Shown: positions 3,404 to 10,314 of the stretch, one piece after another | How positions within the stretch are numbered: the first letter of the stretch is position 1 | Layout of the letters: every line of letters begins with the position of its first letter | Notes under the pieces: model-generated | What the model saw: only the letters and a program-made list of their open reading frames with translations | Told to the model about the DNA's origin: nothing | Database searches by the model: none | Assembly: GCA_026129865.1 (NCBI GenBank) | Contig: JAHCHG010000002.1 | Location: forward strand, 432,096-496,095 | DNA length: 64,000 nucleotides | Source: Pyrinomonadaceae bacterium | GTDB taxonomy: Bacteria > Acidobacteriota > Blastocatellia > Pyrinomonadales > Pyrinomonadaceae | Direction: 5' to 3' | Translations under genes and position numbers: made by a program

Positions 3404-3413
3404 CTGAGCTTTG

Positions 3414-4901
3414 ATGATGAAAAAATTCGTTCTCGAATTTACGGTCTTCATTTCCGGAGCCGTCGTAATGATCTACGAGATCATCGGCTCTCGAATTCTG
3501 GCACCGTTTATCGGAACTTCCACTTATGTCTGGACAAGCTTGATCGGGATAATACTCGCCGCGCTCAGCGTCGGTTACTGGCTCGGAGGCAAAACGGCGG
3601 ATCGGCGACCGAATATCAAAGTTCTTTCGTCCGCGCTTTTCACCGCCGGCGGTCTGATCGCTCTGACGATCTTTTTGCAGGACGCGGTGCTGGCATTTAT
3701 TGCTACAAGTGGTCTGATCCTTGAATTAAAAGCCGTGCTCGCCGCTTTAATTTTGTTCGCGCCGGCGAGCGTTTTGCTCGGCTTTGTCGTTCCTTACGCG
3801 GTAAAACTAAAGATTCTTTCGATCGCCGACGCGGGAAAAACGGTAGGTCGAATTTATGCATTTTCAACTGTCGGCAGCATTTTCGGGACATTTTTAGCCG
3901 GATTTTTTCTAATACCGTTTGTCGGCAGCGTTCGGACGCTTTATCTGATCGCCGGTGCACTGTTAATTCTTGGCTCGGTGATCGCGCCGTTTAAGTTCAC
4001 TCAATTTCGCTCTGCGGTCGTTGTTTTGTTTGTATTTGCAGTTGCCACCAGCGAGATCTACGGATATTTTCTTTTTCGTTCGATCGGTCTCTACGACATC
4101 GACACAGAATACAGCCGCGTTCGCGTCTTTGACGCAAAAAATCCGCGTGGAGAACCTGTCCTCGCCCTTGCGACCGATCCTTATTTCATTCAATCTGCGA
4201 TCTATCCGGACAGTGATGAGTTAGCTCTCGAATACACGAAATATTATTATCTCGTTCAGGATTTTCGAACGGATATAAAAAACGCGTTGATGATCGGCGG
4301 CGCCGGGTTTACGTTTCCGCGCGATTTTTTAAAAAAGAACCCGAACGCCCGGATCGACGTTGTCGAGATCGATCCCGGAATGACGGTGATCGCGCGGCGG
4401 TTTTTCCGTCTGAAAGATGACCCGCGAATGAATATCATTCACCAGGACGGGCGAATCTATCTGAATAACGCCGGTCAAGCAAAATACGACGTTGTTTTTC
4501 TTGATGCGTTCGGATCGCTTTTTACGGTTCCGTTCCAGCTGACCACGATCGAATCGGTTTCGCATATTCGCCGCGTGCTGAACGAAAACGGCGTCGTCAT
4601 TTTTAATCTCGGCGGAGCGGTCAGCGGTTCTTCGAGCCTATTTTTTCAAGCGGAGTACAACACCTATCGAAAGATCTTTCCGCATGTTCGTGTTTTTAAG
4701 GTCAATACCGGTTATTCGAACGAACAGCTTCAAAATTTAATTATCATTGCTTCGCTTTCTGAGCTAAATATCGATCCCGAAACCGACATCGCAGGCTCGG
4801 AGATCAAAGAATTTGAAATAACCCACGACGGAATCCTAACCGACGACCTTGCTCCGGTTGAGTATTTTAACTCGTTTGCGCAGCGAAATTACCGCCGATG
4901 A
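3414..4901 (+). CDS. Membrane protein fused to a spermidine-synthase-like domain
   Basis: The N-terminal half (about residues 5-220) is hydrophobic with six to seven predicted membrane segments. The C-terminal half is a Rossmann methyltransferase-like fold of the polyamine aminopropyltransferase family: MIGGAGFTFPRDFL for cofactor binding, DVVEIDPGM with the acidic strand-2 end, and DVVFLDAFGS matching the catalytic Asp-Ala-(Tyr/Phe) loop. The fused MFS/spermidine synthase family is widespread in bacteria; its substrate is generally not established, and polyamine synthesis should not be assumed. TTG 3411, ATG 3414 and ATG 3417 are consecutive; no good Shine-Dalgarno sequence is visible because the ilvE terminator occupies that space. 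Confidence 0.8.
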   Translation: MMKKFVLEFTVFISGAVVMIYEIIGSRILAPFIGTSTYVWTSLIGIILAALSVGYWLGGKTADRRPNIKVLSSALFTAGGLIALTIFLQDAVLAFIATSGLILELKAVLAALILFAPASVLLGFVVPYAVKLKILSIADAGKTVGRIYAFSTVGSIFGTFLAGFFLIPFVGSVRTLYLIAGALLILGSVIAPFKFTQFRSAVVVLFVFAVATSEIYGYFLFRSIGLYDIDTEYSRVRVFDAKNPRGEPVLALATDPYFIQSAIYPDSDELALEYTKYYYLVQDFRTDIKNALMIGGAGFTFPRDFLKKNPNARIDVVEIDPGMTVIARRFFRLKDDPRMNIIHQDGRIYLNNAGQAKYDVVFLDAFGSLFTVPFQLTTIESVSHIRRVLNENGVVIFNLGGAVSGSSSLFFQAEYNTYRKIFPHVRVFKVNTGYSNEQLQNLIIIASLSELNIDPETDIAGSEIKEFEITHDGILTDDLAPVEYFNSFAQRNYRR

Positions 4902-5169: not shown

Positions 5170-5176
5170 AAGGAGA
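5170..5176 (+). promoter_or_regulatory. Ribosome binding site of the 5183 gene
   Basis: AAGGAGA lies 6 nt before the ATG at 5183 and fixes that start. The 281-bp gap before it (4902-5182) shows no other convincing feature. Confidence 0.8.
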
Positions 5177-5182
5177 ACTTTT

Positions 5183-5923
5183 ATGGGAATTGATACTTAC
5201 TATCTTTCAAAAAGACAGGTTACCGGCGTCGGAAGCATTTTTTTACTTAACGAATTGATCGAGGAAAAAGCGGGCGGCGGCTCTTTGCTTGGCGCCGTCG
5301 TTCAGGAAAATAAAAGCCCGTTTCATACCGATTATCCTGTTCCGATCCTCGTTTCTGAACCGAACATAATAATCAAAAAATTAGAACTCTGGAAAAAGGA
5401 ACTGAACATCACGAGCGATATAGTCGAGAAACAAAAGATCGCTGCGGGACATAAAAGTATTAAGGTCGAAAAAAACAATTCATTTCAGGTGGGACTCGGA
5501 CCGTTTCCCGGAATTCCGTTCAACGGAAAATTTCAGCTTGATTATTCGCGCGTTTCGTCGATCGACATCACTTATGGAACCGGAACGACCTACAAATACA
5601 TTAGAAAGGGCGACATGATGAAGCTCTATAGAAAATTAAAAGGCAAGCCGGACGATGACATGACCGGCAATTTTCTTCGAAAAAACGCTTTCATCAGTCT
5701 TCTGCAGGTTGCAAAAAACTGGAAGGTTTCTTTCGAATCGACAAAAACCTTTGACGCCGGCGTGGAAGCGCAGATCGATCTTTTTAACAACGACAGCGCG
5801 ATCGGCGGAAGTGTGAAAATGAAGAAAACCAAAGAAACACGAATTGAAGCCGAGGTCGGCGGAGATGTTTTTTACGTCGTCGGGCTTATGTCGACGCGTT
5901 GGGATGACGTCAAACCCGATTAA
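5183..5923 (+). CDS. Beta-rich protein of unknown function, possibly gasdermin-like
   Basis: 246 residues, no cysteine, no signal peptide and no obvious membrane helix. It is not recognised by a named motif. The order of blocks recalls bacterial gasdermins: a short N-terminal region, a SFQVGLG strand, a LDYSRVSSIDITYG strand, a helical DMMKLYRKL segment, then FISLLQVAKNWKVSFESTK, a GGSVKMKKTK amphipathic stretch, and a terminal VFYVVGLMSTRWDD strand. This comparison is from memory, not an alignment. Against it, the N-terminal cysteine that is lipidated in known bacterial gasdermins is absent, and no separate autoinhibitory C-terminal peptide is evident. It forms a unit with the wall-hydrolase-like gene 20 nt downstream. 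The ORF itself is well supported by its Shine-Dalgarno sequence and codon use. Confidence 0.45.
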   Translation: MGIDTYYLSKRQVTGVGSIFLLNELIEEKAGGGSLLGAVVQENKSPFHTDYPVPILVSEPNIIIKKLELWKKELNITSDIVEKQKIAAGHKSIKVEKNNSFQVGLGPFPGIPFNGKFQLDYSRVSSIDITYGTGTTYKYIRKGDMMKLYRKLKGKPDDDMTGNFLRKNAFISLLQVAKNWKVSFESTKTFDAGVEAQIDLFNNDSAIGGSVKMKKTKETRIEAEVGGDVFYVVGLMSTRWDDVKPD

Positions 5924-5943
5924 TTCGGGTGCGGAGGTGCGAT

Positions 5944-7791
5944 GTGGCGTACAAATTTACCTTTACAAAAGAAGGAAAATCAAATTTTGCAAAAATAGCC
6001 GGAAGGTCGGACGCGCCGTTTCTGGTCGGGATCGATACCGTATATCAACGCACCAAACACGGGCTTTTTAATCGCCCGGTCGCCGGCGAGATCTTGTACG
6101 ATCCGGCTGCTTACGCGGGAGAATTCGGGTTTTGGGCATTTTTCATAGCGCCGACTGCGAAGGCGGAAAGCAAGAATTCGTTCGCCTGCATCAACACTTA
6201 CGACCGCGCGCAGTTTACTTTTGGATTTATGCAGTACGCGGCGCATGTTCCGAACGGAGACTTTGTCCGATTCTTCAAAGAATTGCTGAAACTGCCCGCG
6301 GCGAAGGATTATTTTCCGAAACTTTCATTAATAGACGGACGAATCCATTTTCGCGAAGACAACGGATCGCAAACTCAGCTTGAATCGGACGAATCGACTC
6401 AAAAGCTGATGGATTATCTAAATCCGTCTTTAAGCGAGATCGACAATCAAGAACTCGTCTGCGCCGCCAGAATGATCCATTGGTCGCAAAACGACCCGAA
6501 ACACCGCGAGCTGCAGGTCAAAACCGCGGTTGATCATTTTCGGGACAATCTTAAACTTTACGACAAACGCTACGAACTCGATGGAATGTCTGCCGACATC
6601 TGTTTTGTTATCTGCGATGTTCATCATCAGGGTCGCGCGAAAATCAAGGATGTTAAAACCGCGCTCGATACGAACGGCGATCGAAAAGCGGCGCTCAAAA
6701 ATTTATTAAAACTTGGTGAAGCCGATTATAAAGAGAGGGTCGAAACTATCTCGGCAGAGCTCAAACGGCTTTCGAGCTCCGGTTTCTTTGAAAAGGTTTA
6801 CCGCTCAGCGCTCAACGATTTTACTGCACCCGGCGATCCGGCACCTGAGGAGGTCCTGCCTATCAATATCGCGGGCGGAAAAACCACACTTCAGAAGATC
6901 GCGGCAAATAACATTCAGTTCAAGTTGAACGATCTGGCGCTCGACCGCGACCTAGCCGGCGAAATTCAGAACCGGTTGATAGCGCTCGGATGTCTCGATC
7001 CGCCCGCCGACGGTGATTTTGGAACGATCTCGCGGTTTGTTCTGACGGAATATTGCAAACTTTCCGGAATTGATTTTGACACAACGATCACGCCGCAGAT
7101 CGCAAAGGCACTGCTGAATAACAGTTCCGACACTTTTCTCCCGCTCAAACTAAGCGGCGACCTCGCAAGCAAAATCGTCAGGTATATGCAGTTTCGCAAT
7201 TACTGGATCGCGAAACTTCCCGGCTTTTTGAACATCGTTTATCTCGAGGGCGCAGACGCCGACGGCACGCCGAACGCCGATAAATTTAATGAGTTCAACG
7301 ACCGGCGAATTGTTTTCTCCATCGAAAACGGCAAACCGGTCATACTTTACAACGCGCTCGGGTCAACCGAACCGGGTCGCTACTATACTGAACGTCCGCT
7401 AAATTCGCTCGGCGCCGCGCGCATTGCGTTCGGACAGTACAAAGCATGGCGCGTCGGCGTTCACAACGCCGGAAAGCGAACTGCGCACGAAGCGCTTATC
7501 CAGGCGGACAAGATCACTGTTCATCGCGATCTGAACAAAGACGGCATGCGCACCGGCGACCGGCTCGACGTCGGAAGCGGTTTTTTTGTGAACCAGCATT
7601 CGGGATTCGATGCGCCGGTGAACAACATCGGAAGATCGAGCGCGGGATGTTTAGTGTCGCGTTCAAGTGCCGACCATAAAGAATTTATGAAATTGGTAAA
7701 AACGGATCCGCGATTCAAGAAAGCTTCTAACGGTTATAAGTTTATTACGACGGTAATCGCGGGCGACGATCTGAAAAAACAGATCGGTTAG
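5944..7791 (+). CDS. Multidomain peptidoglycan-hydrolase-like protein without signal peptide
   Basis: GTG 5944 is chosen because GGAGG (5933-5937) sits 6 nt before it; the frame also opens at GTG 5929. The 615-residue product has an N-terminal lysozyme/chitosanase-like region (about 25-290) with E75 in KAESKNSF followed by DRAQFTFGFMQYAAH. A peptidoglycan-binding-like segment comes next (about 325-380, with AEIQ-type helix and DGDFG). The C-terminal region has an HSG...NNIGRSSAGCLV pattern like the His/Ser-x-Gly-Cys core of L,D-transpeptidase-type or related wall-active domains. No secretion signal is seen, so it would act only after membrane breach, export by another route, or cell lysis. 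Its stop lies 9 nt from the convergent lptD stop. The domain calls are by eye. Confidence 0.6.
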   Translation: MAYKFTFTKEGKSNFAKIAGRSDAPFLVGIDTVYQRTKHGLFNRPVAGEILYDPAAYAGEFGFWAFFIAPTAKAESKNSFACINTYDRAQFTFGFMQYAAHVPNGDFVRFFKELLKLPAAKDYFPKLSLIDGRIHFREDNGSQTQLESDESTQKLMDYLNPSLSEIDNQELVCAARMIHWSQNDPKHRELQVKTAVDHFRDNLKLYDKRYELDGMSADICFVICDVHHQGRAKIKDVKTALDTNGDRKAALKNLLKLGEADYKERVETISAELKRLSSSGFFEKVYRSALNDFTAPGDPAPEEVLPINIAGGKTTLQKIAANNIQFKLNDLALDRDLAGEIQNRLIALGCLDPPADGDFGTISRFVLTEYCKLSGIDFDTTITPQIAKALLNNSSDTFLPLKLSGDLASKIVRYMQFRNYWIAKLPGFLNIVYLEGADADGTPNADKFNEFNDRRIVFSIENGKPVILYNALGSTEPGRYYTERPLNSLGAARIAFGQYKAWRVGVHNAGKRTAHEALIQADKITVHRDLNKDGMRTGDRLDVGSGFFVNQHSGFDAPVNNIGRSSAGCLVSRSSADHKEFMKLVKTDPRFKKASNGYKFITTVIAGDDLKKQIG

Positions 7792-7800
7792 GCAAATTAT

Positions 7801-10314
7801 CTAATCGCGCAGCCCCTGACCGAACTGTTCGGAACCGAATGTTCCGATTCCGTTTAGACGAAAGCTGAAACTAAGGCGGTTTTCGCGGCGGACGCCGACA
7901 TTGTAAGTATAAAACTGCACGGTCGAGGCGCAGCAGTCGGACGCGTATCCGAGCGTGTAAAGCGAAGAGATCAAAGGAGATGTCCGGTCGGTGCGGCGGT
8001 TTTGAAAATCGAAGAAAAGCGACGTGCCGCCGTAGAACCCTTTGTTGCGGTTTCCGACAAACAGCGACGGGCTCCACTGCGAACCGCGGAGCGTTCCGGC
8101 TTCCTTTCCAAATTCATTGCTGAATCGCTGGAGCGAAGGGATCAACGTTACGGCGCGTGTGTAATAAAACGTCTGGAAAAACTTAAAGAGATCCTTTTCA
8201 TACCCGACCGTCGCCGAAATATTGCGAAGTCCTCCGCCCTGAACACCAAGATCCATTCGCGAATTAAAAAACACTGTTCGCTGCGGTCGATAGGTTGCAT
8301 CGACATTTACCGGCGAAAATCGTCGCGGAACTCCGCCGAATGTGAACGGCGTCAGCGACGTGATCGGGTCGATCTGATTTCGCCTCCCCGGCGTCAATGC
8401 GCCGCCGAAATATGGATCGGCGTAATATTTCCCACGAACCGTCAGCGTGAATATCTCATACGGCTGGATCGAAATGCCGTCCTTTTCATCGACCGCCTTT
8501 CGATTTAGAACCTTTTGTGCTTCTTCCGTTACCGCTTCCGTATAGCGGCGAGTGTAAAATCTGTTCGTAATTCCATATTCGATCTCGTTCGTGTCGGTTT
8601 TCGTGTCGGCAAAATCGAATCGGATGATCTTGTCAAAATTGTCTATTCCCTTGATATATCGATAGGTCAAAAACGGTTCAATGACGTGGCGAAATTTGAA
8701 TTTGTCTTCGTTGTCGTAAAAATTGCGCGCAAGCGCGACGGGACGAATATCGAGTTCGAATTCGCCGTATTTTCTAATCACGTCGCGGCTGATGACCTGG
8801 CGAAAATCGTCAAACGAATTTGAATAGTACGTTACGCGCGCGCCGGCGGTTACTGTTGCGGAAACGTATTTTGAATTGAACGGAATACTTATCTTCGGAT
8901 AAAAATCGAACCGCTGCCCGAGCGAAGGCGAAACGACGGGTTCACTGCCTGCCTTTTTCCGGTATTCCGTCAGATCGTCGACTTCTTCGCGGCGCGAAAC
9001 GCCTTCGAGGCTCGTTTTGAACGAAAAATAAGCGCCGCGAAAGAACGATATCGGCGCCGGACGCTTGTCGAAATTTATCGATGGAAGATTTTTCGTCTTA
9101 ACACGAACATTCGGTATCGAAATGACTTCCGAACGCGCCAGAATGTTCATCGTATAATTATTCCAGCTCTTGTTAAGAAAGACCTTCGAAACCTCGATCG
9201 GCGAGATAACCTGCTGAATACCGTCCGAAAAAACCTGCCTGAATGCAAGGCTCGAGGTTATTCTTACATCCGCGACTGCCGTAAAACCGTTCTGAAAATA
9301 CTGGACACCTTCGGCATAAACGATACTTCCGCCCTGATCGGGTTTTTCCGGGCTCACTCCGGGACCAAGCAGTCTGTCCTGGACCGCAAAAAAGCCGAAA
9401 TTAAAAAACGACCGGGAATTTGCCCGCGTTCGGAAATCCGCGCCGTACCCGAAACCGCGGGCGGAATATAGATCGCCGCGGAACGTAACGTCAGCCGACC
9501 GACCGAGCGTCTGGTAGTAAGCGGCTGATATTCGAAGCCCTTTGTTTCCGGAAAAACCGATCGAAGGCGTCAAAAATCCGGACGAGCGATCTTTTTCCTT
9601 AATCGGAATCGAAGCAAATGGAACCGGAATGATCGGAATATTCTTCAAACGAAACTTGGCGTTTTTCAGTTTTATTTTGTCGTTCGTCTTGATCGTCGCC
9701 TTGTCGGTCGTAAAGCTCCAATTAGGAATTGCGTCTTCGCACGCGGTAAAAACAGCATTTTCAACAACAGTCTCGTTCAAAGCGACGCGCTCGACACGGT
9801 CGGCACGAAAATAGATCACTGATCCGTCCTCGGTCTGATTCGTAAATCCGGTCGAATCGGTAAAATTTCCAAGTTTTGTCTTATAGTTCCAAACACCTTT
9901 TGAACCCGTGATCCGCTGGTCTTCGCCCTGATCAAATATCACGCTGCCTTCCGCGACGACAAGGTTCTTTGCTTCGTATATCGTAATTTTGTCCGCCTGC
10001 ATGCGGTAGATTCCGTAACGTGCATCGACATTCCCTTCGTGTACGACTATCCGTTTACCTTCTTCGCCTTCAACGGTTTGGCGGTCTGAATAAACGACCA
10101 GATCGCCGTCGCCGCCTTCGGGTTCGTAACCGTCCTTAATTTGCGGCGACCGGATGTCTTTTTCCGGCAGGATCGGCTTGACGTTCGGTTCGTCCGATAG
10201 CGGATTTGCAACCTGTTTGTCGACCGGATTCGTTTCCTGCGCGAGAATACTGCCGCTGAAAATTAACGTCAACAGAACCAAAAATATCGAATTTTTTAGA
10301 ATTTTGAAGAGCAT
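7801..10314 (-). CDS. lptD: LPS-assembly outer-membrane protein LptD
   Basis: LptD is the outer-membrane beta-barrel that inserts lipopolysaccharide with LptE. The 837-residue product begins with a Sec signal (hydrophobic core about 8-25, cleavage after SILAQ). It continues with an OstA/LptA-like jellyroll (about 65-160: VVHEGNVDARYG, ADKITIYEAKNLVVAEGSV) and then a long barrel with alternating aromatic strands. Cysteines occur in FTACEDAIPNW near the jellyroll end and in SDCCAST near the C-terminus, matching the disulfide-linking regions of the family. The last residues GQGLRD do not end in the usual aromatic residue. It is divergent from the NtrC-type gene across a 266-bp spacer. No lptE is visible in the window. 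Confidence 0.9.
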   Translation of the reverse strand: MLFKILKNSIFLVLLTLIFSGSILAQETNPVDKQVANPLSDEPNVKPILPEKDIRSPQIKDGYEPEGGDGDLVVYSDRQTVEGEEGKRIVVHEGNVDARYGIYRMQADKITIYEAKNLVVAEGSVIFDQGEDQRITGSKGVWNYKTKLGNFTDSTGFTNQTEDGSVIYFRADRVERVALNETVVENAVFTACEDAIPNWSFTTDKATIKTNDKIKLKNAKFRLKNIPIIPVPFASIPIKEKDRSSGFLTPSIGFSGNKGLRISAAYYQTLGRSADVTFRGDLYSARGFGYGADFRTRANSRSFFNFGFFAVQDRLLGPGVSPEKPDQGGSIVYAEGVQYFQNGFTAVADVRITSSLAFRQVFSDGIQQVISPIEVSKVFLNKSWNNYTMNILARSEVISIPNVRVKTKNLPSINFDKRPAPISFFRGAYFSFKTSLEGVSRREEVDDLTEYRKKAGSEPVVSPSLGQRFDFYPKISIPFNSKYVSATVTAGARVTYYSNSFDDFRQVISRDVIRKYGEFELDIRPVALARNFYDNEDKFKFRHVIEPFLTYRYIKGIDNFDKIIRFDFADTKTDTNEIEYGITNRFYTRRYTEAVTEEAQKVLNRKAVDEKDGISIQPYEIFTLTVRGKYYADPYFGGALTPGRRNQIDPITSLTPFTFGGVPRRFSPVNVDATYRPQRTVFFNSRMDLGVQGGGLRNISATVGYEKDLFKFFQTFYYTRAVTLIPSLQRFSNEFGKEAGTLRGSQWSPSLFVGNRNKGFYGGTSLFFDFQNRRTDRTSPLISSLYTLGYASDCCASTVQFYTYNVGVRRENRLSFSFRLNGIGTFGSEQFGQGLRD

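Follow-up and report, generated by a model that had tools for sequence, protein, structure and literature searches.

A small two-gene insert lies between a spermidine-synthase-like gene and lptD in a Pyrinomonadaceae bacterium (source assembly of 4.4 Mb in 21 contigs), within the 64,000-nucleotide stretch of DNA analysed here (the window). In the reading that we favor, with a probability of roughly 0.6, the second gene encodes a soluble two-headed lysin, and the first represents a separate family that is not an obligate partner of the lysin. The features on which the analysis draws are the following, in window coordinates:

3411..4901, plus strand: spermidine-synthase-like (speE-like) membrane protein gene, left flank of the insert
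5171..5175, plus strand: AGGAG, the ribosome-binding site read from the sequence for the 246-aa gene, 7 nt before its ATG
5183..5923, plus strand: 246-aa gene, frame open from ATG 5183; product basic (pI 9.1), cysteine-free and soluble
5933..5937, plus strand: GGAGG, the ribosome-binding site read from the sequence for the hydrolase gene
5944..7791, plus strand: two-headed wall hydrolase of 615 aa, signal-less, with a GTG start; frame open from GTG 5929
5944..6846, plus strand: N-module of the hydrolase, about 300 aa, which occurs alone in other genomes
6874..7788, plus strand: C-module of the hydrolase, about 305 aa, also present by itself in other genomes and phage contigs
6958..7044, plus strand: peptidoglycan-binding-like stretch (PF01471), weak in the window protein
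7171..7779, plus strand: YkuD-like catalytic region, from its profile match to phrog_3000 and phrog_33083 (endolysin)
7597..7599, plus strand: His of the H-x13-S-A-G-C motif, invariant
7639..7650, plus strand: SAGC motif with the candidate catalytic cysteine, invariant
7801..10314, minus strand: lptD, right flank of the insert, convergent

Both reading frames are intact. Relatives at 57% and 42% identity, together with the ribosome-binding site, identify the 246-residue frame described in the first-pass annotation as a real coding sequence. The hydrolase frame comprises 620 residues when counted from GTG 5929, and GTG 5944 is its likely start, preferred because a GGAGG lies upstream and because it agrees with the N-termini of relatives (MALNF.../MAINF...). 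From this start the gap to the end of the 246-aa gene is exactly the 20 nt that had been reported, and such spacing, combined with a ribosome-binding site of its own, suggests that the two genes are co-expressed, as would be natural for a functional pair. Hydropathy shows no signal-like or transmembrane-like segment in either protein (19-residue Kyte-Doolittle means peak at 0.71 for the 246-aa protein and 0.96 for the hydrolase), which bears out the earlier description of the hydrolase as lacking a signal peptide. Promoter and terminator scans returned sites no more frequently than by chance, no Rfam element was found, and no prophage genes occur in the adjoining stretch examined.

Comparison of the hydrolase (as the 620-residue frame) with 145 relatives gave piecewise matches that resolve into two modules. 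Residues 1-306 occur alone in genomes G022, G023 and G026, and residues 316-620 alone in G089 and G125; these separate copies, where full-length, are 55-58% identical to the window hydrolase, and their frames stop at the module end. Because each module is found as a separate gene elsewhere, the hydrolase is a fusion of the two.

The C-module carries the clearest relationship to known lysis proteins. The C-terminal 200 residues of the hydrolase match phrog_3000 (1.4e-30) and phrog_33083, which is annotated as endolysin (1.2e-11), so the likeness to a phage endolysin seen at first pass is confirmed. YkuD enzymes share the signature H-x14-17-[ST]-x-G-C, to which the H-x13-SAGC of the C-module is close, and H250 and S264-C267 (C-module numbering) are invariant in all three C-module members compared; the S-x-G-C-type region noticed earlier is thus genuine. 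The peptidoglycan-binding-like region fared less evenly, since the match to PF01471 (PG_binding_1) is weak in the window protein itself (E=0.075) but comes close to or exceeds the curated cut-off in C-module relatives (1.1e-4 in G089 and 1.8e-6 in a viral relative). Relatives of the C-module were found in crAss-like, Bacteroides and other phages, and three viral contigs carry them too. The window protein shares with phage endolysins that have a YkuD-like (L,D-transpeptidase-fold) part the homologous C-terminal 200 residues, a wall-binding segment and the lack of a signal peptide. Unlike the phage endolysins of PHROG 3000 and 33083, however, the window gene is chromosomal and fused to a second module of 300 aa, and searching the viral contigs turned up no copy of this N-module. 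A wall-lytic role of the hydrolase is well supported, and the exact bonds that it would cut are proposed below.

On one of the viral contigs (L026, 4856-7116), a C-module relative lies between a pair of small ORFs that may contain a transmembrane stretch and a GH24 lysozyme, all close together in a gene group that resembles a lysis cassette.

The N-module had been called lysozyme-like, a label that found no counterpart in Pfam, PHROG or PDB sequences; what suggests it is the company that the module keeps, along with the invariant residues E80 (6166-6168) and D92 (6202-6204), which are candidate glycosidase residues. In three of four relatives the N-module adjoins a peptidoglycan peptidase or a wall-binding protein, namely a DUF2272 protein in G022 (4.7e-18), a Peptidase_M15_3 protein in G026 (2.3e-10) and a PG_binding_1 protein in G457 (1.9e-20), where the module copy is cut by the contig end; G023 is the sole relative whose neighbor has no family assignment. 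These stand-alone acidobacterial genes (G022, G026 and G457) have an N-module that is 54-56% identical to that of the window in full-length copies, and each sits beside a wall-active or wall-binding neighbor as a two-gene locus with no 246-aa protein, whereas the window has a single fused gene. A further weak match in G250, within a 508-aa frame beside unrelated genes, is probably due to chance. In the G457 locus (L034, 2799-6556), all on one strand, the N-module gene and the PG_binding_1 protein are followed by a 322-aa frame without assignment and then by a patatin-like phospholipase, possibly a wall-plus-membrane attack cluster.

The first gene belongs to a very rare family. Across 162 genomes of the class and 396 genomes sampled from the phylum, only three members were found, those of the source genome (G000), of G005 (57% identity) and of G505 (42%), and the nearest named relative carrying the gene is 'Acidobacteria bacterium 28-1'. 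The protein has no match in Pfam, PHROG, PADLOC or NCBIfam; a search of PDB sequences with the protein and with a three-row alignment returned nothing related; no relatives were seen in viral contigs, plasmids or phages; and a search of GTDB contigs with a two-row alignment recovered only the G005 locus. Weak extra matches in G003, G029, G129 and G492 are short or off-pattern and look like chance. The window and G005 proteins contain no cysteine and the G505 protein has one, at residue 64; with no invariant Cys or His in the family, a typical enzyme is less likely.

Is the 246-aa gene tied to the lysin? The first-pass annotation had joined the two in a lysis or suicide module, and conservation does not support this. 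No hydrolase match exists anywhere in the G005 or G505 genomes, which are draft assemblies 86-90% complete, and no 246-aa gene was found in carriers of the hydrolase modules within the searches covering those carriers. Among the three members of the 246-aa family from which linkage can be judged, there is no conserved pairing. Instead, the junction between the speE-like gene and lptD is a variable site that holds the two-gene insert in the source genome. The two flanking genes abut, with an empty junction, in G018; a 246-aa relative occupies the same place beside lptD in G005, next to a transposase; and in G022 (L074, 4743-6484) the window's insert site beside lptD holds a PG_binding/M74-like protein and a protein that reads as C1-papain-like by eye, from sequence alone. 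The G505 relative adjoins an epimerase gene. Between G000 and G005 the 246-aa protein is 57% identical and lptD 68%. Most economically, the 246-aa gene would have been present in a common ancestor of G000 and G005, or have arrived on two occasions, with the lysin added or lost independently of it.

We hypothesize that peptidoglycan is bound by the C-module, whose YkuD-like H...SxGC motif makes cleavage or exchange of peptide cross-links its most likely reaction. For the N-module, so often encoded beside peptidoglycan peptidases, cleavage of the glycan strand is the likeliest activity. Lacking an export signal, the lysin would be confined to the cytoplasm in the manner of a phage endolysin, and would dissolve the wall once the membrane has been breached or the cell has lysed. 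The first gene would encode a beta-rich protein without conserved Cys or His pointing to catalysis. This protein may act on membranes and could be very remotely related to gasdermins, and its family would have come to adjoin the lysin in this lineage.

The alternative that survives best makes the 246-aa protein a divergent gasdermin-fold pore that opens the inner membrane so that the lysin reaches the wall, the two genes forming a two-step suicide or lysis module; we consider it unlikely. Its origin is the gasdermin-like block order noticed at first pass, which on comparison with seven real bacterial gasdermins (bGSDMs) amounts to a sub-threshold trend. The comparison set was drawn from PDB sequences, Acidobacteria and one cyanobacterial plasmid, the PDB gasdermins being obtained by a search with a gasdermin-like string. 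The PADLOC bGSDM model PDLC02986 gave no match to the 246-aa protein at E<=10, against 1e-64 to 1e-72 for real members (positive controls at L031, L032, L033 and L027, 5e-72 to 7e-64; G007, 1.7e-71), and no match in the source genome.

More sensitive comparisons speak on both sides. With an HMM of six bGSDM sequences the three family members score 2.8, 0.9 and 1.4 bits, all above 203 decoy ORFs (taken from the loci compared), with shuffle p values of 0.009-0.023; once a seventh bGSDM is added to the HMM, however, the members have 0, 1 and 3 decoys ahead of them. When local alignments are summed over 21 pairs, p=0.0025; of the six pairs that score best, five lie within or close to the C-terminal register expected, and the top pair is colinear over residues 55-239 with a bGSDM from the same bacterial family. 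On the other side, 1, 3 and 16 of 153 non-overlapping ORF decoys score as high as the three members, and profile-profile comparison gives p=0.13. The sequence similarity thus appears as a weak, mostly in-register trend below threshold, with p about 0.003-0.1 depending on the test, and these p values are not independent, nor should the smallest stand alone, because the members are related and several tests were tried.

Predicted structure adds a compatible but low-confidence picture. AF2 models of the 246-aa protein reached pLDDT 37 and 45, the run with three sequences giving pLDDT 45 and pTM 0.45, and in the second half of the model a strand pair, a helix, a long strand, a helix, a strand and a long strand follow one another, an order that would be compatible with bGSDMs. 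Relative to bGSDMs (PDB 7N50, 7N51, 7N52 and 8SL0; PDLC02986), the 246-aa protein has a similar core size and a similar modeled strand and helix order, with a roughly 40-residue extra stretch before its second half. Foldseek gave no significant match to the models and no gasdermin among the 50 matches listed, a result made uninformative by their low confidence.

The features reviewed for bGSDM membership include a cysteine, a tail and a neighboring protease (PMC10989679). The N-terminal palmitoylated cysteine is absent from the 246-aa protein, although an early cysteine is not strict for bGSDMs, since the profile-positive G421 and G451 proteins also lack one. A C-terminal autoinhibitory tail is missing as well, with only about 9 residues after the last predicted strand, whereas bGSDMs such as those of G280, G421 and G451 are longer there by a few tens of residues. 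No activating protease lies next door, the neighbors being the speE-like gene, the lysin, lptD and an NtrC-like regulator, unlike two true acidobacterial bGSDM loci, which have CHAT or C25-like neighbors. That the lipidated cysteine and the protease are lacking had been conceded from the outset, and both absences hold. Further in favor of a pore are the want of conserved Cys or His, which makes an enzyme less likely, and the patatin phospholipase near the N-module in G457; against it stands the lack of the lysin in both other carriers of the 246-aa gene. Given no profile match, sub-threshold similarity and no cysteine, tail or protease, we do not file the 246-aa protein as a gasdermin, although it may possibly work like one. 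In a bolder version, the 246-aa family would be a gasdermin lineage so far overlooked, lacking lipid anchor, inhibitory tail and protease, and in one bacterium its gene would share an operon with that of the two-headed lysin, a single transcript thus encoding both a pore for the inner membrane and the lysin; we hold this to be quite improbable.

Bona fide bacterial gasdermins do occur in Acidobacteriota, in G280 (L031), G421 (L032), G451 (L033) and G007 (L043). The L031 gasdermin has a CHAT protein and a C25-like peptidase as its neighbors and that of L033 a CHAT protein, while the G421 and G451 proteins reach 1e-64 or better with the bGSDM model despite having no early cysteine. On a Gloeothece verrucosa plasmid (L027, 4001-4957), a cyanobacterial gasdermin annotated as a hypothetical protein matches the same model at 6.6e-64.

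Alternatively, a secretion machine might inject the lysin into competing bacteria as an antibacterial effector, and the 246-aa protein would then serve it as chaperone, adaptor or immunity partner. A multi-domain wall hydrolase that has no signal, lies at a variable site and has differing wall-active partners in relatives would fit an effector module, and among the type IV secretion effectors of S. maltophilia is one with a glycosyl-hydrolase-like domain (PMC11253643). However, no delivery domain was recognised in the lysin, which has no further Pfam match; protection from a wall enzyme would call for an exported immunity protein, and a signal is lacking in the 246-aa protein; and the 246-aa family is present in genomes without the lysin. 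We therefore rate this role as very unlikely. Descent of the lysin from a phage lysis gene left behind, with both genes decaying as neutral passengers, would suit the C-module relatives in phages and the site content that differs between genomes, but is highly improbable for two intact ORFs with the H and SAGC residues retained and a 246-aa relative kept by lptD in G000 and G005 (57% identity versus 68% for lptD).

Set against these alternatives, the reading of the second gene as a soluble two-headed lysin is sound and the hydrolase assignment holds, whereas the two-step module is not supported by conservation and gasdermin identity is not established, the 246-aa protein being a member of a very rare family with a faint gasdermin resemblance. 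If the pore reading were true, this would be a bacterial gasdermin used as phages use a holin, and it would allow the route of a cytoplasmic lysin to the wall to be tested directly in cells not infected by phage. What is firm is that two lysis modules that circulate separately have been joined into a signal-less chromosomal lysin of a new architecture, and that in this bacterial family the insertion site carries different wall-active proteins in two of the genomes compared.
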